Below, piece after piece: positions 45,152 to 64,000 of a stretch of DNA of 64,000 bases. The position numbers and the translations under genes were made by a program. Positions within the stretch are counted from its first letter, which is position 1. The number at the start of each line of letters is the position of its first letter. Source of the stretch: Fodinicola acaciae (GTDB lineage Bacteria; Actinomycetota; Actinomycetes; Mycobacteriales; HKI-0501); contig NZ_WOTN01000003.1 in NCBI RefSeq assembly GCF_010993745.1, positions 930,001 to 994,000 of the forward strand, read 5' to 3'. Below the pieces are notes generated by a model that saw only the letters and a list, made by a program, of their open reading frames with translations, was not told the origin of the DNA and did no database searches.

Positions 45152-46132
45152 TCAGCTCCGGGGCAGCAGTGCAGCGGTCGCCGCGCGCGCCAGAATGCCT
45201 TGGCTCTGCGCCGACAAACCGAGTCGGTTCCAATGGAAGATCACCACTTGGGTGAGAATCGCTCGTAGGCCGCGGCTGAGTCGGCCGTCCGCGGCGTCGC
45301 GGCCAAGCTGTCGACCGGCGGTCTGCCAGGACGCGAGCCACGACGCCGCGTGCGCGGCCGGTCCGCTGGGTACGAGCAGCTCGCTGTCGGCCAGGTTGGG
45401 AATCGACAGGAGCAGACACACGTCGTCGGCCAACCGGTTGACGCGCGCGGTGTCGGTGGGTGCGGGACGCAAGTGGGCGACCCGGTCGAATACGTCTGCG
45501 CACTCGAACGTGTCGAGGTTGGCGGTGCGCATGAGCCCGCCAAGCAGCAGGAGGGATATTTCGCGGCGGCCGAGGGCAGGATTGTCCTGGCGGAGATATT
45601 CCAGTACGCCAAGGCTATCGGCGCAAAACAGGTCGTGGACGGTCTGCATTCCTGTCGCGCCGCCGAATGCGGCGGTCTCTGCTTCGTACACCGTCGGCCA
45701 CCACCGCTCGATCGCACCGGCACCCACCCACTCATTGAGGACCTTGTTGACTGCGGCGGTATCGGCGCTGAGCAGGCGCAGCCGCCAGCAGGGATGCTTG
45801 CGAAGAAACCACCATCCTGTGACAGCCCCGGCAGCTCGGAGCCGGTCCAGCGATGGACCGATCGTCTCCGTACCGACGGTCTCGGCGGTCGACCAGTCCG
45901 CGACGCGGACACGAACGTCGTACCAGGTGCGTTCGGCGCGGCGCTCCAGCGCCGCCAGACCGGCGGCCTGATAGGTGTGGACAGCGTCGGTGAGTTCGGC
46001 CGGATCCAGCGCGTGACCGGCCGCGACCGCAGCGGAGTCAGCGCCCGCAAGAATCGCCTGGATCGCCGCTGCGAGGTGAAGGGTGGTGATCGGCGTGGGG
46101 GTGGTCAGGTGATCAGCAAGCATGCGTCCCAT
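45152..46132 (-). CDS. Stand-alone SpaB_C (thiopeptide-type bacteriocin biosynthesis) protein
   Basis: The 326-residue protein starts MGRMLADHLTTPTPITTLHL. It contains WYDVRVRVADWSTAETVGTE, GWWFLRKHPCWRLRLLS and RWWPTVYEAETAAFGGATGM, with FCADSLGVLEYL later. These are hallmarks of the SpaB_C family. That domain carries out glutamate elimination in lanthipeptide and thiopeptide dehydratases, or pyridine formation in thiopeptides. No LanB glutamylation domain or precursor is nearby; the closest RiPP genes are more than 30 kb away. It follows a methyltransferase fragment whose end it overlaps by 28 nt. Confidence 0.82.
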   Translation of the reverse strand: MGRMLADHLTTPTPITTLHLAAAIQAILAGADSAAVAAGHALDPAELTDAVHTYQAAGLAALERRAERTWYDVRVRVADWSTAETVGTETIGPSLDRLRAAGAVTGWWFLRKHPCWRLRLLSADTAAVNKVLNEWVGAGAIERWWPTVYEAETAAFGGATGMQTVHDLFCADSLGVLEYLRQDNPALGRREISLLLLGGLMRTANLDTFECADVFDRVAHLRPAPTDTARVNRLADDVCLLLSIPNLADSELLVPSGPAAHAASWLASWQTAGRQLGRDAADGRLSRGLRAILTQVVIFHWNRLGLSAQSQGILARAATAALLPRS

Positions 46133-46449
46133 CCCGTGTGAGGCGGCGTGTTGGTGCGGGAGGGTGCTGGGTTGGGCCAGCGGCTCCACAGGTCGCGATT
46201 GTGGAAGGCGAGGCGCCCGATGCCGGCGCCCAGATCGATGATTCTGTTGCCGCTGACCTCGATCGACATGTCGCGCGCCAGTCCCGCCGGCGTGAAGTGG
46301 GCGCGGTCGCAGGCGTTGGTGCTCGTCGATGATTCTTGCCAGTTGTCGAGGACGAATGTGCGTTCGTCCTCGGTGAGGTCCCGGCCGAGGTTGATCAATT
46401 GGCATGCCTGAGCGTGTAGTCGCTCCTGTTGACGCGTCAATTTTCCCAT
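46105..46449 (-). pseudogene. N-terminal part of a NPPF-type SAM methyltransferase (C-terminus missing)
   Basis: ATG 46449 is preceded by GAGGAG. The frame reads MGKLTRQQERLHAQACQLIN, LTEDERTFVLDNWQESSTST, HFTPAGLARDMSIEV and RIIDLGAGIGRLAFHNRDLW, i.e. a DNA-methyltransferase-like N-terminus with SAM motif I (GAGIG). After SRW it turns into PNPAPSRTNTPP and stops, before the acidic SAM segment and the catalytic NPPF. Those missing parts are present at 12893-13486 on the same strand. The gene follows DUF3560, a usual neighbour of this methyltransferase type in actinomycete mobile elements. Confidence 0.75.
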
Positions 46450-46590
46450 TGAAAACTCCTCGTGCATGGTGGTCCGAATGAGCATCAAATTGACTGCGGA
46501 GTCCGACTACGACGCGTTTCGCTCCGTCCCCAGCTCTGGAGGAAAGATGGCCTTTCAACATCGAGCCAGATACCTCTGGCCGGTCCGCAC

Positions 46591-48144
46591 TCAGACGGGC
46601 TTGCTGGATTCGTTCGCGCTGGACGAGTGCGGCGAATAGTTGGGGAAGATGGCGAGCCATCGGTGGGTCTTGAAGGGGTACTCGGCGCCGTCTGTGAGTG
46701 TGATGGTGATCCAGGTACCGGCTTCGTGCCGATCGATCGGCTCGGATACGGCTGCGACCAGTCCGGTGATGGAGCGGTGGACGTACGAGTCTTGTGGGCC
46801 ACGTTCCCAGGACCCCTTGATGAGATCGCCCGGGCGTACGTCGGTGACCAGCCGCAGGGTTGGCTCGCTGGCAGGGATCCGCCAGTCCGCGTCCAGGTCG
46901 ACGATCGTGAGGGACACTCGAATGTCGGGAACGGGTTCGCCGGCCTCCAGCCGGCGGTAGACGGCCAGGTAGGTCGCGGCGAGGCTTCGTTGTGCGTCCA
47001 CGTCGAGGCGGTCGCGGTGCAACGCCGCAAGTTCGGCGTCCGGTGCAGTGAGGTCCAGGCCGTGTACGAGCCGTTGGGCGTATCGCATGTGCCGCAGCAG
47101 GTCGGTGTGGTCGCTGCTGCGGGAGTCGGCCTCGCGGTGCAGTTGACGCCAGGCCGCGACCTTTGTGGCCAGTTCGACCGGCCAGGGCTGGCCGTGCGGG
47201 GTGTCCCATTGTTGGCCATCTCGGCGCCGGCCGGTGATCTCGTCCATCGGCGCGGTGCGGGGCCCGCTGGTGCTGTTCAGGCTGAGGGTTTTCTTGTTGA
47301 CTCTGGTGACGGCGTACCAGCGATGGAGGACCCGTACGTGGTCGCCTGGGGTGAAGTGTGCGGGTGTCCAGGCAACGAATGTGCCGTCGCTGGCCATCTG
47401 CGCGAGTTTGTCCCGCTGGTGGCCGATGTCGTCGGCCAGCCGGTCAATCTCCCGCTGCGCTTTTTGCTGTCCCGGCGAGCCGTCGGCGCATTGATCACGG
47501 TAACGCTGAATTTTGCGTTGCTCGGCTTCCAGTTTGTCGATCCGTCGCATGATCGCCGGCCCGCTGGCTTTGGCTGCTTCGTTGGCGGCGGCGCCTTCGG
47601 CGCGCTGGCTTAAGTGTGCGGCGTACGCGGCTTCGTCCCAGCCGCGACGGTCGCCAGCATTGATACGTTCCTGGTCGCGGCGCGATCGTCGTTCGGAATG
47701 GTGACCGACCTGTGTTGGCTGGCCGAGGGGACGTAGATCGGCGATCGCTTGGGCACGCGCGTGGCTGCGCGCGCTTCGGTAGGCGGCGCGGTCCGCGCGC
47801 TCGGCCAGCCGCTCGACGCGGGCGTCGACTCTGGCGGCGCGGTCGGCTTCGCGTTCGGCTGCCGACCGCCACGTGTTGTCGATTTCGATCTCGACGCGGT
47901 GGCCTACGGCGCGCAGCGCGTCCGCGAGGCCCTGGATGGCGGGCTGGTTGGCGTCCTTGTCGCGGCTGCCCCGGATGAATATTCCGACGGAGCGTCGATA
48001 CGTGAATCCGTGTTGGTAGGCCAATTCGAGAACACCATCGCCTTTGCTGGACCCGTGGATGAGGGTGCCGTCGGCGTGCGTATGGGTGATGACGATCGTT
48101 GACGCGGATTCGGAGGCATTGTCACGGTGCGGATGGGTGGACAT
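46591..48144 (-). CDS. DUF3560 domain protein of the mobile element
   Basis: I start at ATG 48144 (MSTHPHRDNASESAS); the longer frame adds a Pro-rich non-coding-like extension. The 517-residue protein has a DUF3560 N-terminal half: GSSKGDGVLELAYQHGFTYR and SVGIFIRGSRDKDA, followed by a long Arg/Ala-rich coiled coil (RAARVDARVERLAERADRAA) and EAEQRKIQRYRDQC. The C-terminal part contains small beta segments (DHVRVLHRWYAVTRVNKKTL) and EWRIPASEPTL-like strands. DUF3560 proteins accompany plasmids and integrative elements of actinomycetes; function unknown. Confidence 0.78.
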   Translation of the reverse strand: MSTHPHRDNASESASTIVITHTHADGTLIHGSSKGDGVLELAYQHGFTYRRSVGIFIRGSRDKDANQPAIQGLADALRAVGHRVEIEIDNTWRSAAEREADRAARVDARVERLAERADRAAYRSARSHARAQAIADLRPLGQPTQVGHHSERRSRRDQERINAGDRRGWDEAAYAAHLSQRAEGAAANEAAKASGPAIMRRIDKLEAEQRKIQRYRDQCADGSPGQQKAQREIDRLADDIGHQRDKLAQMASDGTFVAWTPAHFTPGDHVRVLHRWYAVTRVNKKTLSLNSTSGPRTAPMDEITGRRRDGQQWDTPHGQPWPVELATKVAAWRQLHREADSRSSDHTDLLRHMRYAQRLVHGLDLTAPDAELAALHRDRLDVDAQRSLAATYLAVYRRLEAGEPVPDIRVSLTIVDLDADWRIPASEPTLRLVTDVRPGDLIKGSWERGPQDSYVHRSITGLVAAVSEPIDRHEAGTWITITLTDGAEYPFKTHRWLAIFPNYSPHSSSANESSKPV

Positions 48145-48199
48145 TGGCCTTCTCTTTTCTGGGAATACTCCGGATTGGCGGGTCGATGGGCGCGGTTGT

Positions 48200-48685
48200 T
48201 CAGCTGTCCGGCCGGATGTGTTGGGGTCGTCGGCGGGGTCGGCCGGCGTTGGCGGCAAAGGAGCGCCAGTCGGCGTACGCCCAGACGGTGCCGCGCCGCC
48301 AGCACCGACCGGCCCGGCCGTTTGGCGTCGGTTCGTGGTCTTGTTCAGCAAGCGCAAGTAGGCCGGGCGGAAGGCAGCGGTGGGTTCGGTAATGGAGGAT
48401 GCGAGCGACGGCGGTGGCATCCAGGAGGTCGTCTGGGTCGCCGCTGCGGTCGACTGGCGTGAACCGGGAACGGTTGGCCGCCTGGTGGCCGCTCCACCAG
48501 GCGTCGGCAGCCACCGCGTCCCACCACCGCCGCGGACCCTCGCCCTCGATCGGGACCGGTTCGGGAAAGCCCGTGGTGTCGCGGCGTGCGTACCAGGAGG
48601 AGACGGTGCCGGGAACGACGCCGAACCGATCGGCCAGGCCGGTACGGTCGAGCAGCAGTCGGCCAGCGACCATTCTGTGGCTCAT
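48200..48685 (-). CDS. Helix-turn-helix DNA-binding protein
   Basis: ATG 48685 gives 161 residues. LADRFGVVPGTVSSWYAR near residue 20 is an AlpA/MerR-like HTH. A second similar segment follows (LLDATAVARILHYRT ... RAGRCWRRGTVWAYADWRSF), so the protein may contain two winged-helix-like modules. Proteins of this type act as excisionase-like or regulatory factors in integrative elements. It lies 55 bp upstream of the DUF3560 gene. The 290 bp between it and the DUF2637 stop hold no supported gene. Confidence 0.68.
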   Translation of the reverse strand: MSHRMVAGRLLLDRTGLADRFGVVPGTVSSWYARRDTTGFPEPVPIEGEGPRRWWDAVAADAWWSGHQAANRSRFTPVDRSGDPDDLLDATAVARILHYRTHRCLPPGLLALAEQDHEPTPNGRAGRCWRRGTVWAYADWRSFAANAGRPRRRPQHIRPDS

Positions 48686-50531: not shown

Positions 50532-51380
50532 CTAGGCCACTTGGTCAGGTTTAAACGACGTATTCCGCGCGGTCGGGAGATCGATGAGCCGCCGACGTGT
50601 GTCGGCAGCGGCGCCGCTGTCGACAATCCTCCAGACCGCGCCGGCAGCGCCCTCGCTCAGGCTCCCGATCGTGGTCGCCACGATCAACCCGTCCGGCACA
50701 CGATCACTGAATACGCGATGCAGCGTGTTCTCTCGTGTCGGCGACGGCAGCCGGAACAAGACCGGGAAGTTCCACGGCGTGTCCACCAGGCGGAGATAAC
50801 CGGGCAGCTTGTCGGCCAGCTGGCGCATGCTTTCAGTGCCAGTGTCGTACTCAAGCCAGAACGGCGCGCGATGGCCGTCGGCGGACCAGATGCCGTGGCC
50901 GTCCGGGCGGGCGACGCCGCCGATCGCCGCGGTTGCTCGTCGTTCCGACCACCATCGCACCAGCGTTACCTCGGGTTCGGATCGCGCGTACGCGGCGAGC
51001 TGCACAAAGAATTCGTTGCAGCCCAGTAAATGATGGATCATCGGCGAGCTGGCCAGCCGATCGGTGCCTGCTCGTACAGCCGACGGCGCTGGTACCGGCC
51101 GGCCCGCGGTCTGAGCAACCAACGCAGCGCCCAACGGGCCGAGCGTCCACCTCCAGGATTGTGAGCCCGGCCGCACGTGGTATCGCCATCGATCCAACAA
51201 TCCGCGCCGATACAGCAGAACCAATCTCTTGCGCGCGCGGTGCGATGACGAAAACGCCAATGCCGTGATCTGTTCGGTGGTGAGTGTGCGATGTTCGTCC
51301 AGCACACCCAGCAGCCACCGATCCCGCCCGGTAATGCGAATCAGCTCATCAGCCAGCCGCCGCGGCGGATCCTCATGCAT
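50532..51380 (-). CDS. Replication-relaxation family protein
   Basis: The 282-residue protein starts MHEDPPRRLADELIRITGRD and has a winged-helix N-terminus (WLLGVLDEHRTLTTEQITAL, RARKRLVLLYRRGLLDRW). It continues with SSPMIHHLLGCNEFFVQLAA, WWSERRATAAIGG and the acidic strand FWLEYDTGTESM. This order is typical of the replication-relaxation family found on actinomycete plasmids and integrative elements and implicated in initiation or strand nicking. The D/E-rich strand followed by YLRLV resembles a restriction-endonuclease-like core. It is transcribed after the cargo block and before DUF2637. Confidence 0.82.
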   Translation of the reverse strand: MHEDPPRRLADELIRITGRDRWLLGVLDEHRTLTTEQITALAFSSSHRARKRLVLLYRRGLLDRWRYHVRPGSQSWRWTLGPLGAALVAQTAGRPVPAPSAVRAGTDRLASSPMIHHLLGCNEFFVQLAAYARSEPEVTLVRWWSERRATAAIGGVARPDGHGIWSADGHRAPFWLEYDTGTESMRQLADKLPGYLRLVDTPWNFPVLFRLPSPTRENTLHRVFSDRVPDGLIVATTIGSLSEGAAGAVWRIVDSGAAADTRRRLIDLPTARNTSFKPDQVA

Positions 51381-54465: not shown

Positions 54466-55011
54466 TCACAGTCGCGGGTCGAAAATGTGCAGGCTGCCGT
54501 CACATTCGACGGTGGTAATGTCGCCACCGAGTTCCAAGTCGCGCGCGAACGCGGCTACGTCCAGGTAGCTTTCTGAGATTCCGGCATCAGCCATTGCCGC
54601 GTACCAACCCATGTCATCGGCGAGGGTTTCGGCGTAGTCTTTGACGCTGTCGAAGGTGCCGAGGTACGCGTCTTGGAATGAGTCGAGGTCGTCCTCGAGG
54701 TTGATGCGGTCGCGGGTGGTGACCCATGCGGCGAACGCCGGGCCGTGTTCGGCGATGCCGCGCGCTATGCCCGCTACGGTCGCGATGTCTTCATACTCGC
54801 CGAGGGTGACCGGTCCGAATCCCTCGTAATCGTGGATGGCGTACTCTTCTCGCCGGACGTTGCCGCCGGTGTCTTCGTCGGCAAGCATGGACTTGATTTC
54901 AAGGTGGATGTCTTCCGGATCCTGTGTGGCGTCAATCCAGACGCCACGCAGTCGGCCGGCGACGTAGGCGGCAAGATCGGCAACGTAGATCTGCGGGCTA
55001 TCAGCGGACAT
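54466..55011 (-). CDS. ardA: Antirestriction protein ArdA
   Basis: The 181-residue protein (ATG 55011, MSADSPQIYVADLAAYVAG) matches ArdA throughout: RLRGVWIDATQDPEDIHLEI, AIHDYEGFGPVTLGEYEDIA, GIAEHGPAFAAWV and a strongly acidic middle. ArdA mimics B-form DNA and blocks type I restriction-modification enzymes of a recipient during conjugation. The length is typical for the family (about 165-180 residues). Its presence supports the region being a conjugative element. Confidence 0.92.
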   Translation of the reverse strand: MSADSPQIYVADLAAYVAGRLRGVWIDATQDPEDIHLEIKSMLADEDTGGNVRREEYAIHDYEGFGPVTLGEYEDIATVAGIARGIAEHGPAFAAWVTTRDRINLEDDLDSFQDAYLGTFDSVKDYAETLADDMGWYAAMADAGISESYLDVAAFARDLELGGDITTVECDGSLHIFDPRL

Positions 55012-55075
55012 TGTCAACACCTGCAAAAGAGTCGATACGGCGGAATGGTCAGACGGGGTCAGGTCGCTACTCCGG

Positions 55076-55879
55076 TTAGCTGATCAGGAAGCCGACCCGG
55101 CCGGTGCTGCAGTGCGGACACGTGATGCAGTCGTCAACGTCGAAACCGTCGGCGTCATCGAAGTCCCAGGGCGCGGCATCGTATCCCCAGTCAGGCACGA
55201 AGTGCCAGGATCCAGATTCAGCTGCCCACCGCATGCCGCACGTGTCGCATTCGGCCATACAGTGCGACGCAAGGAAGCCCTCGACTTCTGCGGCATGGCA
55301 ACCAAAATCGTCACTGATGCCGTTTACGTTTCCAAGACAGGAGACTCCGACGGTGCGCATCCGGTAGTCGCCTTCCTCACCGATGAGGTACCACCCCGCA
55401 GGGACAGGGTCGAGTTGTTCGGTGATCCGCCAGCTGGACGCGTACGTCCATCCGGACGGTTTGATGTAGTCCGGCATGGTGTATCGCACCTCGACCGGGA
55501 TCACTGTCTGTGGAACCCGAACGATGGTCAACGCCCGACCGTCCGACAAATACGTGTCGTTTGACGTTTCGTACCACTCCGTACGCACATCCGTGAGGAT
55601 GCCGAGCTTCTCCAGCTCGAACAGTCGCGACCCACGGTCGGGATACTTGCCGACCGATGGAAGGTCGGTGTTCCACGGTTCGAAGTCTTCCAGCTGGATC
55701 CGATGCAGGAGCGGGAGAATAAACAGCGAGTCCGTGGGGTAGCACTCCAGGACTTCGGAAAATGCCGCGCTCGCGTCTGCGTCCGTTTCGAATGCTTCCA
55801 GTACGGCGCGCACGGTGTCGGCGCTGTCCACGGTGATGCTGAACTGTTCCACTTGCGGGAAGTGGAGATCGGTAGACAT
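55076..55879 (-). CDS. Cargo protein with C-terminal zinc ribbon; paralogue of 53212-54048
   Basis: ATG 55879 (MSTDLHFPQVEQFSITVDSA) gives 267 residues; an in-frame start at 55930 is also possible. It has FETDADASAAFSEVLECYPT, FELEKLGILTDVRTEW, RALTIVRVPQTVIPVEVRY, AECDTCGMRWAAESGSWHFV and the terminal CPHCSTGRVGFLIS. The plan matches the gene at 53212. Two CxxC knuckles imply zinc binding. The function is not known; location beside ardA suggests a role in establishment after transfer. Confidence 0.7.
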   Translation of the reverse strand: MSTDLHFPQVEQFSITVDSADTVRAVLEAFETDADASAAFSEVLECYPTDSLFILPLLHRIQLEDFEPWNTDLPSVGKYPDRGSRLFELEKLGILTDVRTEWYETSNDTYLSDGRALTIVRVPQTVIPVEVRYTMPDYIKPSGWTYASSWRITEQLDPVPAGWYLIGEEGDYRMRTVGVSCLGNVNGISDDFGCHAAEVEGFLASHCMAECDTCGMRWAAESGSWHFVPDWGYDAAPWDFDDADGFDVDDCITCPHCSTGRVGFLIS

Positions 55880-56445
55880 ACGAGTCTCCCAGGGTTCCGG
55901 GTAGGTGGGTGATTGTCGAGCGACCGTCATTTGCGGTTTCCGGTCGCTCGAACAATGAAAAAGCTACCGACCTCAAAACCAGGTGCCAAGACTTTCCGGC
56001 TCGTAATTTTGTGCCATGACCCTTGGCTCAGCGTAATGGAAAACAATTCGCGGCGGAACGCCTTGGCACTGTCACGCAGTCGTCGTAAAATGGAATCACG
56101 CTCGCGCGGGATTCCTATTTTGAGCGTCCGCGCACACGAATGGATCCATCCCCGCCGGCGCGAACCAGGCTGCGGGCTAGCCGGCCGGACGCGCCGGCGC
56201 AGATGTAGGAGTGCCGCAAGCGTGGGCGATGAGCGGACGGGAACGGAGTCTGCAGCGTGGGGATGAAACCCGTCCGTGAACGGGTTTCACACCGCGCCGC
56301 GGGCTTCGTTCCCGTCTGGTCGTAGACCAGTCAGGGCAGCCGCCCGCGCTGTACGCGGCCGGTGACCTGGGGAAATACGAGTGAGCGGGTAGCGTGTTCC
56401 GTGGCTACCCAGTGAGCTACCCAACGCGCCACTGAATGAGCGGGT
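55880..56445. other. Non-coding region with hairpins and GCTACCC repeats (possible oriT or promoter)
   Basis: No gene is supported. TGAAACCCGT (56264-56273) pairs with ACGGGTTTCA (56280-56289) over a 6-nt loop. GGGTAGC (56387-56393) is inverted relative to GCTACCC at 56404-56410 and 56416-56422. The segment stands between the VirD4-like gene and the ardA block, the kind of place where origins of transfer or early promoters occur. That role is unproven. Confidence 0.45.
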
Positions 56446-57987
56446 TTACCAGCTGGTGAAGTCGCCGTCCCATCCGCCCAGTAGACCGTTCATATCATTC
56501 ATGGGGTCCAGGGTCGCGGACGCGGCGTTGGGGTCGTCTGAGAGATCGTCGACCGCAAGCAGATTTGCAGCCAACGGTACGTAGAGACGTTCCCGTTCCG
56601 AGGGGGAAATCCCGGTCCTTTCACGCGCCGTTTTTCGCAGCTGCTCGGCGCGTCCGGGCACTGGCGGGATCGGCGGCAACGTACGCAGCGTGACCGGTGG
56701 TAATGGCCGTGCGTGCGCGATCGCGCGTAATGCGATCGTGTACGCGTCCATTCGTCGCAGATCAATCTCGTCCAGGAATGGCCGAACGTGCCTCGCCATT
56801 TCGGCGGCGTCTTTCTGTTCCAGAGTGAAGAATATCTTGTTGCGCGCGTTTCCGTCTACCGCTGCTTGCATATTCTCGGTGAATTGGTCGATCAATTGGT
56901 GGGCGATGACGAGGGACACGTGGAATCCGCGCATTTGTGCGAGCGCGTCGTCCACGCCGATGGGTAAGTGCAGGAAATTTTGCGCCTCGTCCAGGATCAG
57001 GGTCGCGTCCAGCCGAGCGGATTCGGATTGTCGCGCCCGGCCGCCGGCGGCCTGCAGCAGACCGGTCAGCAGCATCGAGCCGACTAGACGGGCGGTGTCG
57101 GCGCCGATGTCGTCGGTCGGTAGGCGCGCGAGCAGGATGCCACCATCCAGGATCTCGTCGAAGGAGAACGTCGTACGCGGGAGCCCGAACAGTCCGGCCG
57201 GCAGGGGGTGGCCAAGGACAGCGCGGAGTTTGGCCTGAAGCGGCGCGGCGAGCGTCAACCGCGCTCCGGGCGGGAGCTGGTCCCACATGTTCCAGAATTC
57301 GCCGAGGGTGCTCTCGCGCGGGCCGAGACGGGTGCGGACGGCCCGGACCTGACCGCGTCGCCAGACGTGGTCGGACAGCAGCCGGGACATCTGGCCGAGG
57401 GTGCCGCCGTCGGCGTGGGCGAGCGTCAGGGCGGCGTGGTAGGCGATGTCGCCGGAGCGGTGGCCCCACCAGCGGTGCCAGAGTTTGGCCATCACGGCGG
57501 TCGTCGCGCCGGCGGCCCGGTACGCCGATCCGCCCGCCACTGTCAGGTCGAGCAGGTTGATAGCCGGCAGCGCGGCCTCGTCGTCCGGGTCGATCAGCAC
57601 CAGCCGGTCCCCGCAGGAGGCCGGCAGGCGATCCAAAATGTCGCGCACCAGGTCCCCTTTTGGGTCCAGCACGGCGATTCCGCGGCCAGCGTCAGCCTCT
57701 TGCAGGGCCAGATTCGCTAGCAGCGTGGACTTTCCGACGCCAGTCGGGCCCAGGACGTGGAGGTGATGACGGGCATCGGCCTGCGAGATCCCGGCCGCCA
57801 CGCGGCGGCCGATCGTGGTGTGGCCGAGCACTTTCCCAGCTGGACCTCGGCGCTGCTGTGGCGGTACGAGGTGCAGCCGGCGACGATCCGATGGCGCCTG
57901 CTCGCCGGTCTCGGCGGTCGCCAAGCGAGGGCGTGGAATGGCCGGGCGCGGGCTCGGCGCAGGATCGGGCGCGGGATCATCGGTCAC
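56446..57987 (-). CDS. VirD4/TraG-like conjugative coupling ATPase
   Basis: GTG 57987 overlaps the upstream stop by 4 nt (GTGA) and gives 513 residues; a longer frame would overlap the neighbour by 91 nt. Motifs are Walker A LGPTGVGKSTLL, DPKGDLVRDIL, and Walker B TLILDEAQNFLHLPIG with LVIAHQLIDQFT, typical of coupling ATPases that deliver DNA to the secretion channel. There is no obvious N-terminal membrane helix, so anchoring is probably by the membrane protein encoded just upstream. Confidence 0.85.
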   Translation of the reverse strand: MTDDPAPDPAPSPRPAIPRPRLATAETGEQAPSDRRRLHLVPPQQRRGPAGKVLGHTTIGRRVAAGISQADARHHLHVLGPTGVGKSTLLANLALQEADAGRGIAVLDPKGDLVRDILDRLPASCGDRLVLIDPDDEAALPAINLLDLTVAGGSAYRAAGATTAVMAKLWHRWWGHRSGDIAYHAALTLAHADGGTLGQMSRLLSDHVWRRGQVRAVRTRLGPRESTLGEFWNMWDQLPPGARLTLAAPLQAKLRAVLGHPLPAGLFGLPRTTFSFDEILDGGILLARLPTDDIGADTARLVGSMLLTGLLQAAGGRARQSESARLDATLILDEAQNFLHLPIGVDDALAQMRGFHVSLVIAHQLIDQFTENMQAAVDGNARNKIFFTLEQKDAAEMARHVRPFLDEIDLRRMDAYTIALRAIAHARPLPPVTLRTLPPIPPVPGRAEQLRKTARERTGISPSERERLYVPLAANLLAVDDLSDDPNAASATLDPMNDMNGLLGGWDGDFTSW

Positions 57988-59291
57988 GGGATCGTTGGTC
58001 CTTCCTTCTCCGCGTTGACCCGGCCACCGGCCGCTTCCGTCGGGTCGCTCCACGTCCCGGCCGCCGGGCTCCATAGGCCGGTGGTAGCCGGCCGATGCCG
58101 CCCGGACGCGGTCGGCATTCCATAGAGGGCCGGTTCAGTGGGGATCGGGGTGAGCGCGGCGGTTTCGGCCGCGGTCGCCAGAATCGCCCACCGGCCGGGC
58201 GCCGGCCGGCGAGCAGTCGCGCGTGCCGCGGGCCACCACGGGATCGGGATCACGGCGTGCGTGAGCGCCGCGTAGCCGCGGCTGATGTCCGCGACGAACG
58301 TCGATGCCGTTCCACGACTCCGCGCGGCGACCGTCGTCCGGATGTCGACGAGAAAATGCGGCGCCGCAGCGAGTTTCGCCCGCGCCGTACGCACCAGCGC
58401 CGGATCGACCACCGCCGCGCCACCAGCGGCGTGGTCGTCGCCAGCTCGTCCGCGGGCAGCGTCGCGGGCCGGGCCAGGACTGAGCAGGTCGATGACCACC
58501 TCGACCGCGAGCTGCAGCATGATCAGCGGCACCCTCCCGACCGCGCCCAGCAGCGGCGTACCGGCTCGTTCTCCCGCGGCAGCGGCGCGTAGAGCGTTCA
58601 ACCTGCTCGTGGTCGGCCGGGCTACGACGAGTTGAAGTACGGCGACGCCGGAATGGCCGGCGGTGGTAAGCGCGTCCAAGACCGCGTGCGCGTCCTCAAT
58701 ACGAGCCGGCTGCCGGCCTGGCATGGCCGCGGGGTCAAGGCGAGTGTCATCACGGACGGCATCGAAACCGGATTCCCGATATCGCAACCGCCGCCCGACC
58801 ACCTGGCGGCCGGTCGGCAGATCCGGCGGATCGGTGACACGAACGTGTGCGCCCGGCCAGGCCCGTACGATCGCCCGCATCGTCGGCTCGACATGGACCG
58901 CCGGCGGCAGCCACAGGCCACACCGCACCTGATCCCCGTACGCCCACAACTCCACCACCAGATGCCCGGGACGCAAACGCCACCACCGCGCGGCGGGAAG
59001 AATTCCCCCGAGCAGACGCCAAAGTCCGGTCACCTGCCGGGCACCGAGCCCTTCCGGGAAGGTGATCTGTACCCACCGAGCGCGCCGCCGCGCGCGGCCG
59101 GCCGCCAGGGCGCGAACGATTGTCCACAGCAGCGCACCGGCCACCACCAGGACGGCCACAGGCCACAGCACGCGAAGGTCGATTTCCGCCGGCGACCAGC
59201 CACAGGTCACGGCCTGCCCGGTCGCCATCGCCTCCATCCATGCGCGGACGCAATCAAACGGTGACAACGGTGCGACAACAACCGTCCACAT
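57984..59291 (-). CDS. Membrane protein of the conjugation module
   Basis: ATG 59291 (MWTVVVAPLSPFDCVRAWME) gives 435 residues. A hydrophobic segment at about residues 38-62 (LRVLWPVAVLVVAGALLWTI) is followed by basic sequence and a large cytoplasmic domain with VQITFPEGLGARQVTGLWRL and HSGVAVLQLVVARPTTSRLN. No ATPase motif is present. It is coupled to the VirD4-like gene and so probably recruits or anchors that ATPase. Arrangement matches conjugation loci of actinomycete plasmids, but I cannot name a homologue with confidence. Confidence 0.68.
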   Translation of the reverse strand: MWTVVVAPLSPFDCVRAWMEAMATGQAVTCGWSPAEIDLRVLWPVAVLVVAGALLWTIVRALAAGRARRRARWVQITFPEGLGARQVTGLWRLLGGILPAARWWRLRPGHLVVELWAYGDQVRCGLWLPPAVHVEPTMRAIVRAWPGAHVRVTDPPDLPTGRQVVGRRLRYRESGFDAVRDDTRLDPAAMPGRQPARIEDAHAVLDALTTAGHSGVAVLQLVVARPTTSRLNALRAAAAGERAGTPLLGAVGRVPLIMLQLAVEVVIDLLSPGPARDAARGRAGDDHAAGGAAVVDPALVRTARAKLAAAPHFLVDIRTTVAARSRGTASTFVADISRGYAALTHAVIPIPWWPAARATARRPAPGRWAILATAAETAALTPIPTEPALYGMPTASGRHRPATTGLWSPAAGTWSDPTEAAGGRVNAEKEGPTIP

Positions 59292-59376
59292 GAGACGACC
59301 CTGCTTTCGGGAAAGGCAGCAACGGCTGAGAAGAAGGCGGCAAACCGCGCACCTCACATCGGCCCGCCGCCGGGAC

Positions 59377-60243
59377 CTATGCCGACGGCCTGGTGGTCGA
59401 GCGATGCAGCGGTGAGCGAAGACCGCCCCTGGTGCCGGTTCGGCGAGAACCGTCGCGACGTCCGTGCGGTGTCCCGAAACGGTGGTCGGTGGCCGTGGCC
59501 AGGAGGGAGCCGAGCAGCTCGGTACGCCAGCGCAGCGCGTACCGGACGCAGTTGGCGCAACTGGCGTGCCCGCGACAACCCGTCAACGGTGGCCGGCGAC
59601 GAGCAGACAGAGACCAGGCGAGACTGTCGCTGCTTGCGAGTTCATGGCCGTACCGCGCGAGGCCGGTGGTCTTGACGCCGAATCCGTGCAACCGGACCGT
59701 CGGTATCCGCGTACGGATGGCGTCGAAGATCGCGGCGGCCTCCGTGGTGCCTTGCCGGCGGCAGACCGATCCGACACCAACGACCGGGACGGCAGTCAGG
59801 TTCACGCCGGCGTCTTCGTACCGTTGGATGCAGTCCAGGTAGTCGCTGGCCGCCCAGCCTTGTAGTACGGGGATGAACGGCAGGTCCGGCGCGAGTTCAC
59901 TGAGTTGGAGGTAGTTGGCCACGGTACGGCGTTGGTGCTCTGCGACCGTCAAACCGGTGGCCGCGAGGACCTGCGGTTCGACCATCCAGTCCTGCGGCGC
60001 GGCCCATTGCAGCTTCCCGATGTCGGCGGCGTAGCGGCGAACTCGGTCGGCGTACGCGCGTGGGCTGACCTGGTGCCAGCCGCCGTAGGTAGACAGTTCC
60101 GTGAACCCGCCGGAGTCCAACGCCCATGGCCCGGCCGCGACCGGGAGAGTCCGGTAGCGGCGCAGCCGCCGGTCGGAAACGAACAACGGCACGGTGAGAG
60201 TGCGCAGCCAGTGCGGATGATGCGTTCCCAGGTAGAACCTCAT
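59377..60243 (-). CDS. DpdA-family deazapurine DNA modification protein (TGT-like)
   Basis: ATG 60243 overlaps the transporter stop by 4 nt. The 288-residue protein has the TGT-type barrel signature ALDSGGFTEL at about 41-50, with Asp43 in the position of the TGT active-site aspartate. It continues WAAPQDWMVEPQVL, RTVANYLQLSELAPDLPFIP, VVGVGSVCRRQG, LHGFGVKTTGLARYG and CANCVRYALRWRTELLG. These are traits of the DpdA relatives that exchange guanine in DNA for a 7-deazaguanine base. It is short relative to full TGTs. The function as a DNA rather than RNA modifier rests on family knowledge. Confidence 0.8.
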   Translation of the reverse strand: MRFYLGTHHPHWLRTLTVPLFVSDRRLRRYRTLPVAAGPWALDSGGFTELSTYGGWHQVSPRAYADRVRRYAADIGKLQWAAPQDWMVEPQVLAATGLTVAEHQRRTVANYLQLSELAPDLPFIPVLQGWAASDYLDCIQRYEDAGVNLTAVPVVGVGSVCRRQGTTEAAAIFDAIRTRIPTVRLHGFGVKTTGLARYGHELASSDSLAWSLSARRRPPLTGCRGHASCANCVRYALRWRTELLGSLLATATDHRFGTPHGRRDGSRRTGTRGGLRSPLHRSTTRPSA

Positions 60244-60818
60244 CCGCGCCGGATCCGATACTCGACCACGGTCGCCAGCACCCGCTGCCCCAAGTCCAGA
60301 ACAAGCGCGGCCGTGATCGCACCGAGCGCCTTGCCGAGCAGTTGACCTGGCAGCAGATTCCAGGTTCCAAACGCAGCCCCGACAAACACAACGCTGTCGA
60401 CGACGCCGCCCGTCGCGACGGCGAGCAGTGCACCGATCGTGCGCCGGCGGCCGGCCAGCCGTGCGTACACGGCGAAGGCTGCTCCTTCGGCGAGGACGAA
60501 CGCTGCGGCGCTGGCGGTGGCGATGGTCGGTCCGGCGGTCGCGTACGACAACGCAGCGCCGGCGGCCATGACCGTCCAGGTGCCACAGGTGCCGAATGCG
60601 CGCTGGACGAGATTGCGCAGCACCAGCAGGACGCCGACGGCGTAGACGCCGGCGGGCGCGGTCAACCCGAACCCGATCGGCACCGCCCCGCACCAAGCGG
60701 TGAGGGAATTGGCTGCCACGACCGCCGCGGCATATCCGACCGCGGCAACGACACCGCTGCTCGTACGGATCCGGGCGGTCGATGCACCGGCAGCTGGCAG
60801 GGCGGCGTACGAAGGCAT
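60240..60818 (-). CDS. VUT/YhhQ-family transporter (queuosine precursor type)
   Basis: ATG 60818 gives a 192-residue protein with about five or six membrane helices. It shows VVAANSLTAWCGAVPIGFGL, GVYAVGVLLVLRNLVQRAFG, FVLAEGAAFAVYARLAGRR and VVDSVVFVGAAFGTWNLLPG, the arrangement of VUT/YhhQ membrane proteins, which import preQ0/preQ1-type queuosine precursors. Its stop overlaps the ATG of the DpdA-family gene, so import and DNA modification would be coupled. An RNA hairpin at 60910-60950 separates this pair from the conjugation genes upstream. Confidence 0.82.
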   Translation of the reverse strand: MPSYAALPAAGASTARIRTSSGVVAAVGYAAAVVAANSLTAWCGAVPIGFGLTAPAGVYAVGVLLVLRNLVQRAFGTCGTWTVMAAGAALSYATAGPTIATASAAAFVLAEGAAFAVYARLAGRRRTIGALLAVATGGVVDSVVFVGAAFGTWNLLPGQLLGKALGAITAALVLDLGQRVLATVVEYRIRRG

Positions 60819-60909
60819 GGCGGTGGTCTCCACAGGTGGGCGTGACGACCCGTGGGATGGGTCCACGAGGCAGGCGGCGGGGATAGGGGGACTGGCTGGC
60901 TACACGGAG

Positions 60910-60950
60910 ATCGGTGGTGGTGTCGCGCATGGGTCTGCGCCACCACCGAT
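60910..60950 (-). terminator. 11-bp hairpin separating conjugation genes from the transporter/DpdA pair
   Basis: ATCGGTGGTGG (60910-60920) and CCACCACCGAT (60940-60950) flank a 19-nt loop, 21 bp past the stop of the small membrane protein gene. Placement suggests a terminator, making VUT-DpdA its own transcription unit. Confidence 0.6.
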
Positions 60951-60970
60951 CGACTGGGGACTGCGACGAC

Positions 60971-61222
60971 TCAGCGGATGTAGGAAAATCCGGGGAACCT
61001 CGGGAAGCCGATCCACGGCAGATACGCGCCGAGCGCCAGATACGGCAGCAGTCGGATAACCAGGAAGAACCCGACGGCCAGCAGCACGACGGTGGTGATG
61101 GTGCCGGCCACAGCCGCAAGGACGTACCAGCCGCTGTAGGGATCGCGCGACGGCGAGGACGGGGCGGGAGTGGTCGACGGCTGCGGCGTCGTCGGGAGAG
61201 ACGAGATGGGAGTGGTGGGCAT
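60971..61222 (-). CDS. Small membrane protein of the conjugation module
   Basis: The 83-residue protein begins with a Pro/Ser/Thr-rich segment (MPTTPISSLPTTPQPSTTPA). One long hydrophobic stretch follows (WYVLAAVAGTITTVVLLAVG, then FFLVIRLLPYLALGAYL), most likely two membrane passes, ending FPRFPGFSYIR. It lies 14 bp downstream of the VirB4-like gene. The size and place fit a minor subunit of the transfer channel. Confidence 0.68.
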   Translation of the reverse strand: MPTTPISSLPTTPQPSTTPAPSSPSRDPYSGWYVLAAVAGTITTVVLLAVGFFLVIRLLPYLALGAYLPWIGFPRFPGFSYIR

Positions 61223-61236
61223 GGCGGATTCCTCTC

Positions 61237-63078
61237 TCAGCGGGGCCGACGGATGGTCGGTGGCACTGACGGTTGGTCGGGATTCCTGAACTCCGGGTCA
61301 GTCCGGATGACGGCCTGTTCCTCGGGCGAGGCGAGGGCGTGGACGCCGACGCGGTGGCGCCCGGCGATCAGGAGCGCGTGGCCGCGTTGGGCGGTGGCCA
61401 GGAAGCTGCGTTCGCCGGCAGTCAGCCGAAACGCGGCGGTGATGGCGTCCAGCGCCTGGGGCGCCTGCCCGAGCAGGACGTGCGTGGACGCGTTGTTGAG
61501 GACGGCCTTGCCGAGATCGGACTGCAACACGTCGTCCACGTCCTGAGTGGTGACGGTCAGTGCCCCGTTGTTCTTGCGAATGGATTTCGCCAGGCGGTAC
61601 AGGAATTGGGCGCCGTGGCCGTCGCGGAGCAAGGTCCAGGCTTCGTCGACGTACACCAGGTGCCGCCGGCCACGCTGCCGGTCGGTGATGGTGCGCCAGA
61701 CCGCGTCCAGCACTAGCAGGGTGCCGGCGGCATGCAGCTCGGGCGGCAGCCGGCGCAGCGAGTAGACGGTCAGATGCCCGCCGGCGCGCGCGGTGGTCGG
61801 GCCGGCGAACAGCATCGAATGGCTGCCGGTGACGTACGGCGCGAGCCGTTCGGCCAACTCGGCGCCGATGTCGCCGACCGCGCCGCCCTGCTCGCGCAGG
61901 GCGGTGGCGAGGTCGGCCATCAGCGGCGCGGGGCGGCGCCAGGTGCGCGGGTCGCTGTTGATCCCGGCCGCCCGGTAGGTGGCCATGATCGCCGTGTCGA
62001 GAACGGCGGACTCGGCGGCCGTCAAGGGCTGGCGCAGCAGGGTGTTGATCAGGGTGTGCAGGAACAGCACCTGTTCGGTCAACCCGTCGGTGTCCGGTGT
62101 CGGTGCGGGGAGATCGAACGGGTTGAGGTGCACGCCGCGCTGTCCGAGCGCGATGGTGATGCCGCCGACCATGCCGGCGAGGTCGACGTACTCGTCCTCC
62201 GGGTCGATGACGGTGGCATCGGCGTCCTGATACAGGTGCCGCAACAAATCCAGCTTGGTCAGGTAGGACTTGCCGGCGCCGCTGCGACCGAGGACGACCA
62301 TGTTGGCGTTGTCCTGCCGCCACCGGTCCCACACCACGACACCCGGCGAGGACAGGTTTGTGCCGTACAGCACCCCATGGCCGAGGTCGGTCGGCCGGGT
62401 CGGATCCGGCGCCGGCAGGTCCGGCGACGTGAACGGCATCGCCGATGCCAACGCGGACGTGTCCATCGTGCGGGTCAGACGGAGGTGGTCGACCGCGACC
62501 GGGAGGGTAGAGGTCCAACCGGCCAGAGCACGCCACGTGGTGGGAGTGGCGCGCAGCAGGAGGGACTCGGCCAGCGCGGTCACCTCGGCCACGTCCTGTT
62601 CCAGCTGCTCGACGGTGGTCGCATGGACGGTGAGGTAGAGGCCGAGCCGGAACAGCCGATCCTGACCGCGGGCGAGCCGGTGAGCGAGGTCAGCGGCGTC
62701 AGTGGCGGCGGCCTCGATCTCGGGATCGTCGAGGTGCCCGTGGTCAGCGGCATAGCGCCGGTTGGCTTCGAACTTCTCCCGCTGTTTCTTCAGTTGACGC
62801 GCGGCGGTGGCCGCATCGATCGGGTCGATGTGCAGCGTCACGTCCAGGTGGGCGGGAAACGCGGCCAGTGGCTCCAGCCAGCCGGCGCCGACCTCCGCGG
62901 GATAGCCCGTGACCGCGAGCACGGCGGCATATCCGTGGCCGGCGCGCACATGCCGGGCGGCGACAGTAATCCCGTCCGGCGCGAGCCGACCCCCTGCCTC
63001 TTCCCCGGCCTTTGAGGCGTCGTCGATCGTGTTGCTGGCCAGGCGTCGGCCATGTAGTAGCAGGTCGCGCAGCATCAC
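61237..63078 (-). CDS. VirB4-like conjugation ATPase
   Basis: GTG 63078 (ATG 63075 is the next codon) has AGGAGG 7 nt upstream, overlapping the stop of the PrgI-like gene region. The roughly 613-residue protein has LRDLLLHGRRLASNTID, an N-terminal VirB4 domain, Walker A VVLGRSGAGKSYLTK, IDPEDEYVDLAGMVGG and Walker B HLVYVDEAWTLLRD, followed by TVTTQDVDDVLQSD. VirB4 energises assembly of type IV secretion channels. The ORF reaches further upstream, but the Shine-Dalgarno fixes the start. Confidence 0.9.
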   Translation of the reverse strand: MMLRDLLLHGRRLASNTIDDASKAGEEAGGRLAPDGITVAARHVRAGHGYAAVLAVTGYPAEVGAGWLEPLAAFPAHLDVTLHIDPIDAATAARQLKKQREKFEANRRYAADHGHLDDPEIEAAATDAADLAHRLARGQDRLFRLGLYLTVHATTVEQLEQDVAEVTALAESLLLRATPTTWRALAGWTSTLPVAVDHLRLTRTMDTSALASAMPFTSPDLPAPDPTRPTDLGHGVLYGTNLSSPGVVVWDRWRQDNANMVVLGRSGAGKSYLTKLDLLRHLYQDADATVIDPEDEYVDLAGMVGGITIALGQRGVHLNPFDLPAPTPDTDGLTEQVLFLHTLINTLLRQPLTAAESAVLDTAIMATYRAAGINSDPRTWRRPAPLMADLATALREQGGAVGDIGAELAERLAPYVTGSHSMLFAGPTTARAGGHLTVYSLRRLPPELHAAGTLLVLDAVWRTITDRQRGRRHLVYVDEAWTLLRDGHGAQFLYRLAKSIRKNNGALTVTTQDVDDVLQSDLGKAVLNNASTHVLLGQAPQALDAITAAFRLTAGERSFLATAQRGHALLIAGRHRVGVHALASPEEQAVIRTDPEFRNPDQPSVPPTIRRPR

Positions 63079-63082
63079 GGGC

Positions 63083-64000
63083 TCACCTCCTGTAAGCCGC
63101 CGGAGGCGACGCGCACGCCGCTGGCCCGGTTGCGGCGGTGATGATGGCGTCGGCACTCGCGTATCCAGCGCTGTTGTCGGTCCCGTCCTGGTACGGCCGG
63201 TAGGGGTCGGCGGCCTCGGCGATCACCCGCGCCGCCCGCGCTCCGTCCAATACCTGGGCGGTGACTTCGCACCCGGCCAGCGCGCTGGCAGTGCGGGCGG
63301 CGGTGTGCGTGACACGGGCGGCGGCGGCCGGACCGGTGCCTGGTTGGCGAACGGCGACCAGGACGCCGCGGTGCAGTAACTCGTGCCGCTGCGCCAACTC
63401 CCGGACGAACGTGGCGTGGCCACGCGCCGCGGCCTCCAACGCCGGGTGCGCGAGCGCCGGCGCGGTGGCCTCGATGCGGTCGGCGACACCGGCCAGGTCG
63501 AGCCGGTGGGTACGCACCACGATCTGCGCTGGCGCGTCGAGCGCGTTCAGCCAGCCGGCGAACCCGGCCACCAACCCGTCCTGCTCGGCCGCGGTGCGCA
63601 GCTGGAAGTTGACGGTGGATGCGGCGGTGATGATCGCGTACCCGTCGCGGCCGAGATCGATCACGCCGGCGTCGGCGACATCTCGTACCGGCATCCGCAG
63701 TAGCCCGGCAGCTGCCGGCCGTACGCCTGCCGAGTCAGAGTGTTGGGCGACATTCACCCAGCCCGGCGCTGCTTCCGAGGGCGTGCTGCCCGCCGGGGTG
63801 AGATGGCGACGCCGCAGCCGGTGTCGGGCGGCTGCCAGCAGCCACTGGTCCAGGGTCAGGCCGTCGCGGCGACCGACGACCAGCGCGAGAGCGGCGGCGC
63901 CGGCGGGAAGTGTGATCCCACCGAGTAGCCACATCGGCAGGTGCCTGGAGGCGAGCATCCATAGCCCCCACAGCCCCATCCCGGCGATCGCCAGGACCGC
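63083..64000 (-). CDS. PrgI-like conjugation protein (5' end outside the window)
   Basis: The frame is open to the right edge, so the N-terminus may lie beyond 64000; the ATG at 63979 sits inside an apparent membrane helix. The visible roughly 305 residues have two hydrophobic segments (GMGLWGLWMLASRHLPMWLL, GGITLPAGAAALALVVG) followed by RRDGLTLDQWLLAAARHRLR, the signature of PrgI-family proteins found next to VirB4. A large cytoplasmic domain follows, with RMPVRDVADAGVIDLGRDGY and AEQDGLVAGFAGWLNALDAP. Its stop precedes the VirB4 start by 4 bp. Confidence 0.78.
   Translation of the reverse strand, partial: AVLAIAGMGLWGLWMLASRHLPMWLLGGITLPAGAAALALVVGRRDGLTLDQWLLAAARHRLRRRHLTPAGSTPSEAAPGWVNVAQHSDSAGVRPAAAGLLRMPVRDVADAGVIDLGRDGYAIITAASTVNFQLRTAAEQDGLVAGFAGWLNALDAPAQIVVRTHRLDLAGVADRIEATAPALAHPALEAAARGHATFVRELAQRHELLHRGVLVAVRQPGTGPAAAARVTHTAARTASALAGCEVTAQVLDGARAARVIAEAADPYRPYQDGTDNSAGYASADAIITAATGPAACASPPAAYRR

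Follow-up and report, generated by a model that had tools for sequence, protein, structure and literature searches.

Within a type IV secretion gene block of Fodinicola acaciae, on the minus strand at positions 59377-60818 of the window (the whole 64,000-nucleotide stretch of DNA that was analysed), a DpdA-family base-exchange enzyme is encoded side by side with a VUT-type transporter. The pair is real and conserved, and its mechanism is testable. The novelty lies in a minimal unit that recurs in conjugative elements and that sits here in a host with neither QueC nor TGT; a search of the open-access literature found no account of such elements carrying DpdA together with a transporter. The simplest and most likely account of the two genes is that preQ0 is imported and then inserted into DNA. 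We therefore favour, as a probable though far from assured explanation, a salvage-only DNA modification module that combines import by VUT with insertion of preQ0 by DpdA and brings an anti-restriction benefit. The identity of the base, the direction of transport, DNA (not tRNA) as the target and the benefit against restriction are all points that we infer.

The preliminary description had proposed two open reading frames with a 4-nt overlap at this locus, bracketed by conjugation genes, and both proposals were confirmed by the ORF list and the sequence (Table 1). The stop codon of the VUT gene shares ATGA with the start codon of the DpdA gene. Upstream, the nearest gene to the pair is a small hydrophobic ORF, followed outward by a VirB4-type ATPase and a PrgI protein; downstream come a protein with no Pfam match and a TraG-type coupling ATPase, with ArdA and Replic_Relax farther out. 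Given the Pfam matches for PrgI, the VirB4-type and TraG-type ATPases and Replic_Relax, this is a putative conjugative element. An integrase is found approximately 17 kb past the VUT gene, outside the window. The small ORF of 83 amino acids was present in the window copy alone among the loci searched by tblastn, and the record L035 of Table 1, named F. feengrottensis, carries a DpdA locus. No tRNA genes were found within the 64-kb window, and promoter and terminator signals in 55000-64000 showed no excess in comparison with shuffled sequence.

Table 1. Features of the VUT-DpdA locus and of the surrounding element, in window coordinates.
Feature	Position	Strand	Basis
DpdA-family base-exchange enzyme, 288 aa	59377-60243	-	PF23859, phrog_1279, predicted model
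Asp43 of DpdA (DSGGF)	60115-60117	-	D in 74/74; DSGxF aligned with two phage DpdAs
His186 of DpdA (HGFG)	59686-59688	-	H in 74/74; aligns to phage 9g His196
Asp206 of DpdA (SxDSxxW)	59626-59628	-	D in 74/74; DS--W aligned with two phage DpdAs
Cys223-His226-Cys229-Cys232 of DpdA, possible zinc site	59548-59577	-	conservation
VUT-type transporter, 192 aa	60240-60818	-	phrog_4899; TIGR00697 and PF02592 below cut-off
Small ORF, 83 aa, hydrophobic stretch	60971-61222	-	ORF; no Pfam match over cut-off
VirB4/TraC-type secretion ATPase	61237-63156	-	PF19044 8.5e-22
PrgI-family protein, continues beyond window end	63083-64000	-	PF12666 4.5e-7
Conserved element protein	57984-59357	-	no Pfam match; homologues in sibling element and L035
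TraG/VirD4-type coupling ATPase	56446-58074	-	PF10412 4.3e-6
ArdA antirestriction protein	54466-55026	-	PF07275 1.7e-38
Replication-relaxation protein (Replic_Relax)	50532-51380	-	PF13814 7e-45

The assignment of the enzyme to the DpdA family, also made earlier, was borne out by the profile check. The protein matches PF23859 with 337.8 bits against a cut-off of 27 (E 5.6e-101, residues 2-244) and phrog_1279 with E 7.3e-105, and it contains the motifs ALDSGGFTEL and CANCVRYALRW quoted in the preliminary description. Against the bacterial-island model NF041059 it scored 10.6 bits, with a cut-off of 200; PADLOC returned no match for either protein of the pair, and sequence searches of the PDB returned no TGT or DpdA. 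The predicted model (pLDDT 88, built from 74 sequences), in which residues from about 250 to 288 are unconserved and of low confidence, was compared with the DNA preQ0 insertase structure 7ui4 (Z 19.2, rmsd 3.3, 232 aligned), with archaeosine TGT (Z 19.8) and with Zymomonas TGT (Z 18.8). Structure had been put forward as a means of placing the protein between DpdA and TGT, and the outcome is mixed: the fold is DpdA-like, but the TGTs tie with 7ui4, so that the fold cannot separate a DNA from a tRNA enzyme.

In alignment A3, which comprises 73 of 80 sampled bacterial loci and the window protein (four duplicates and three sequences with frame or length problems were left out), Asp43, Gln84, Asp85, Gln128, Gly158, His186, Asp206 and Cys232 are invariant in 74/74 sequences. 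Judging from motif order, Asp206 is probably the nucleophile, the counterpart of TGT Asp280, and Asp43 probably the counterpart of TGT Asp102, the roles of the TGT residues being those given in the accessible part of PMC6165067. A Cys/His cluster, in which conservation ranges from C232 (74/74) and H226 (73/74) to C229 (53/74) and C223 (35/74, with His in 27), possibly binds metal. In profile comparisons with hhalign, the motifs DSGxF, HGxG and DS--W fall in register with those of the Rosebush-type DpdA from phage Arbiter (probability 73%, E 3e-5) and of phage 9g DpdA (probability 14%, E 0.0019), while the Salmonella phage 7-11 protein gave E 0.13, without significance. The histidine at position 196, with which His186 aligns, is described as conserved in DpdA and absent from DpdA2 in the accessible text of Hutinet and others (PMC6884629).

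These data also bear on a different target, namely that imported preQ0 or a relative is placed in the tRNA of a TGT-less host. Such a salvage tRNA modifier would fit a fold as near to tRNA TGTs as to 7ui4 and a host genome in which the TGT family PF01702 has no match. However, that same genome contains both DpdA copies, so PF01702 misses DpdA, which PF23859 catches; His186 and DS--W match positions in phage DpdAs whose substrate is DNA, and the enzyme travels on mobile elements and phages. We consider a tRNA target quite improbable.

The second protein had been called a VUT-type transporter, and the description holds by phrog_4899 (E 1.8e-28), with weak agreement from the curated models: TIGR00697 gave E 1.9e-4 and 21.3 bits, under the cut-off of 50.95, and PF02592 (Vut_1) gave 24.2 bits, under the cut-off of 27.2, with 28.2 bits for the sibling copy described below. 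The match to the superfamily of YhhQ/VUT queuosine precursor transporters is stronger for relatives of the window protein, as a member from a dpd island reached 5e-10 against TIGR00697. Taken with profile A1, built from DpdA-linked VUTs, phrog_4899 supports a real homology, though one that is weak by curated models. Across the 26 DpdA-linked VUTs of alignment A1, 13 columns are invariant, including R53, E96, D126 and K148. A tblastn search of phage and plasmid records with the VUT protein gave no match, probably because of the BLAST low-complexity filter, as phrog_4899 matches and two plasmid records annotate VUT and DpdA side by side.

The company kept by this transporter subfamily points towards 7-deazaguanine metabolism. 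Profile A1, which favours DpdA neighbours by construction and contained no dpd-island or QueF neighbour, matches 13/298 genomes of the order at E 1e-5. Strong matches (E below 1e-20, a limit chosen after the match lists had been viewed) come from nine genomes and ten loci, seven of which adjoin a PF23859 DpdA. In genome G145 (L129/L148) an A1-type VUT stands beside QueD, QueE and QueC with DpdE near, and in G149 (L130/L147) another occurs with a FolE2-like gene, QueD, QueE, QueC and two DpdB genes; both loci are actinobacterial dpd islands that carry the VUT subfamily of the window. When the search was widened to the phylum (396 genomes), it yielded three more loci, of which two adjoin QueF (TIGR03139) and the third lies at the end of a contig. 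Thus 11 of 13 A1 loci, from which the weak hits in G236, G240, G252 and G065 were left out, adjoin a gene of 7-deazaguanine metabolism or insertion (seven DpdA, two dpd islands, two QueF). The tenth of the strong loci in the order (G247, L131:5157-6053) is a VUT gene split between two reading frames close to a methylase; its genome yielded no DpdA match, and the locus may be what remains of a decayed copy of the element.

Dpd islands, according to the available portion of PMC11888242, consist of dpdA-C with dpdD-K and carry YhhQ in about 9% of cases, so the combination of DpdA and a transporter was already known. The islands share with the window pair a proposed DNA base exchange and, in the two islands above, the VUT subfamily; they differ in that the window DpdA falls far under NF041059 and has neither dpdB-K nor Que genes beside the pair. 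Islands join the mark to restriction genes (PMC11888242, in the part available), and it may be asked whether the pair belongs to a defence island of this kind, in which marked DNA counts as self and DNA without the mark is attacked by a partner nuclease, the model proposed for dpd islands. The shared VUT subfamily would agree with this, yet PADLOC was empty for both proteins, no restriction gene was present among the window neighbours given to Pfam (a subset of the element genes), and the element carries ArdA; we judge a defence role very unlikely.

The host genome offers a setting for salvage. The genome, rated 100% complete, measures 8.86 Mb, and the window is part of a contig of 1.88 Mb. 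Of the queuosine-pathway genes, the whole-genome profile searches covered QueC and TGT, and gave no match for either. It had been suggested that the base is imported or made by the host. The first part stands in a host without QueC and TGT, and the second, for which QueC was the sole test, is not supported. Within the order, TGT was found in 61/298 genomes, in 2/20 genomes with DpdA and in none of the nine with a strong VUT match, which makes it unlikely that the transporter serves tRNA queuosine there; the window host likewise has no TGT for queuosine.

The same genome holds two DpdA genes and only two Vut_1 matches, each of which adjoins a DpdA. Contig C1 carries the second pair, within a sibling element whose genes run PrgI, VirB4, VUT, DpdA, H457, TraG, H284, ArdA, Replic_Relax, as in the block of the window. 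As this second copy keeps the gene order, the pairing of the enzyme with VUT is not a chance arrangement. Identity between the copies is 180/247 residues for DpdA and 95/181 for VUT, and dN/dS by the Nei-Gojobori method is about 0.20 for DpdA (dS about 1.0) and 0.27 for VUT (dS about 1.4), values that are rough at such dS. By this estimate, both genes are under purifying constraint.

The pair recurs among the best 80 of 101 confirmed bacterial DpdA loci. A VUT gene lies upstream of DpdA in 25/80 of them and no VUT is beside DpdA in 55/80; in 22 of the 25 paired loci the DpdA start codon overlaps the VUT stop (RTGA). PrgI/VirB4 homologues occur within 10 kb in 15/25 paired vs 1/55 unpaired loci, and in 17/25 vs 1/55 when homologues of H255, another protein encoded by the window's element, are counted too. 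These loci are non-independent, as one DpdA is common to L067, L069, L070 and L071 and another to L095 and L096, and the sample also includes near-duplicates and some short contigs. Mapped onto a tree of 83 DpdA proteins, the presence of VUT requires at least five changes, two of which are forced by well-supported branches. No QueC, QueD, QueE or FolE was found by tblastn in the flanks of the 80 loci with proteins of a single phage (Arbiter) as queries, by which distant homologues may be missed. The preliminary description had further seen DpdA and ArdA as a two-part strategy. This fails as a rule, since tblastn placed an ArdA homologue within 10 kb of none of 80 other bacterial DpdA loci, but the combination does occur again in the sibling element.

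Further genes were observed around these loci. An N6/N4 DNA methylase (PF01555) belongs to the window's element approximately 10 kb past VUT, outside the window (L117:6844-7875), and its homologues flank 7/25 VUT-bearing DpdA loci (L054, L056, L058, L060, L063, L072 and L076) vs 0/55 others; such elements may carry several self-modification enzymes. At 45152-47209 of the window, an ORF with a lantibiotic dehydratase C-terminal domain (PF14028, 1.7e-24) overlaps a DUF3560 ORF at 46591-48420 on the same strand. The unpaired DpdA loci L047, L082 and L091 adjoin Prim-Pol genes, and a large neighbour in L078 is weakly FtsK-like; these loci may represent another class of mobile element that uses DpdA, perhaps a conjugative one. 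Directly upstream of a VUT-less plasmid DpdA, a gene of the phosphoadenosine phosphosulfate reductase family was seen (L127:1088-2188).

Among the best 80 of 253 DpdA loci on viral contigs, VUT was found at most 1 kb from DpdA in 25, on the same strand in 23 of these, and QueC in two; 55 have no VUT beside DpdA. Neighbours of the VUT-bearing loci, scanned for 61 of 107 called proteins of at least 250 aa from 21 of the 25 loci, include matches to terminase, portal and capsid proteins, so at least some of these loci are real phages. By tblastn, DpdA of the window type is present in 399 phage records, of which 391 are named Mycobacterium phages, and in 78 plasmid records.

At the level of genomes, PF23859 was found in 20/298 members of the order (19 over the cut-off, some as fragments only, and one under the Pfam cut-off), and strong QueC (E below 1e-15, likewise a limit set after viewing the lists) in 19/298, two of them partial and one with an internal stop. 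Strong QueC occurred in 7/20 genomes with DpdA vs 12/278 without (p 6e-5) and strong VUT in 7/20 vs 2/278 (p 7e-8); within family f14, for which 53 genomes are listed, strong QueC was present in 7/11 genomes with DpdA vs 2/42 without (p 7e-5), kinship being included in all of these figures. Neither strong VUT nor strong QueC is seen in 11 of the 20 DpdA-bearing genomes.

The closest known relatives of the window enzyme are the singleton DpdAs of mycobacteriophages, with which it shares the family PF23859/phrog_1279. Murdoc gp20 was used in comparisons as a stand-in for the DpdA of Orion, a phage that we take to be of one group with Murdoc. It is 55% identical to the window DpdA over 250 aa, and neither the singleton type nor the window enzyme has genes for preQ0 synthesis as neighbours. 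In the Murdoc record, the 17 features shown around gp20 include no annotated transporter, whereas the window gene is coupled to VUT and surrounded by genes for conjugation. The Rosebush type shares the motif order DSGxF, HGxG, DS--W and the predicted base, but it is not PF23859, has only 28% identity with the window DpdA over 126 aa, and carries its own synthesis genes QueC, QueD, QueE and FolE. Phages with DpdA and a YhhQ homologue, mentioned in the accessible part of PMC6884629, combine the same two functions, which here are encoded within a conjugative element, and twice in one genome. The YhhQ homologues are encoded by some phages and are described there as uncorrelated with phage group.

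Hutinet and others reported that the DNA of Orion, with its singleton DpdA, is unmodified in M. smegmatis, as expected without a source of preQ0, since neither phage nor host makes it; the accessible text leaves open the functionality or divergence of these singleton DpdAs (Hutinet et al., 2019; PMC6884629). The singleton type may be diverged or inactive, or use a base other than preQ0, with the transporter importing something else. The Orion result, the functional divergence of a subset raised by the same authors, and the 11 genomes with no strong VUT or QueC agree with this, whereas key residues invariant in all aligned sequences, purifying constraint on both genes, and a transporter subfamily that is found in dpd islands and beside QueF speak against it, and we hold it to be unlikely.

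In favour of the salvage module are the PF23859 score, the fold shared with 7ui4 and TGT, the invariant Asp43, His186 and Asp206, the host without QueC and TGT whose only Vut_1 matches adjoin its DpdAs, the recurring pair with its frequent RTGA overlap, the Que-linked transporter subfamily, and the enrichment of strong VUT and strong QueC among DpdA-bearing genomes. Against it stand the unmodified DNA of Orion, the indecisive fold, a VUT under curated cut-offs, the modest hhalign probabilities, the unpaired majority of bacterial and viral loci, and the DpdA-bearing genomes without a visible base source. Under the module, VUT would bring in a free 7-deazaguanine, and the likeliest one is preQ0 given off by other microbes. 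The preQ0 base is named as a metabolite of Streptomyces qinglanensis 172205 in a reference title in PMC8306585, and another strain of that species (L101) is among the loci with a VUT-DpdA pair. The translationally coupled DpdA would then swap guanine in DNA for the imported base, so that the DNA of the element, and probably that of the host, would bear dPreQ0 whenever the base is available. The mark would help the element to evade restriction enzymes during or after conjugation, a role drawn from phage work: dPreQ0 replaces about 28% of G with the Rosebush type, the modified DNA of Rosebush resists several enzymes, and CAjan without dpdA loses restriction resistance (PMC6884629, in the part available).

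A transporter coupled to the same type of enzyme offers a testable answer to the question of singleton DpdAs raised in the accessible part of PMC6884629. Whether a mobile element with importer and inserter and no synthesis, in a host without QueC, has protection that switches with the surrounding preQ0, and whether such a transporter explains the base source of phage singleton DpdAs, is a matter on which we are evenly divided. The pair would carry 7-deazaguanine DNA modification beyond phages and dpd islands to conjugative elements, and it suggests that such a modification can rely on a base that members of a microbial community share.
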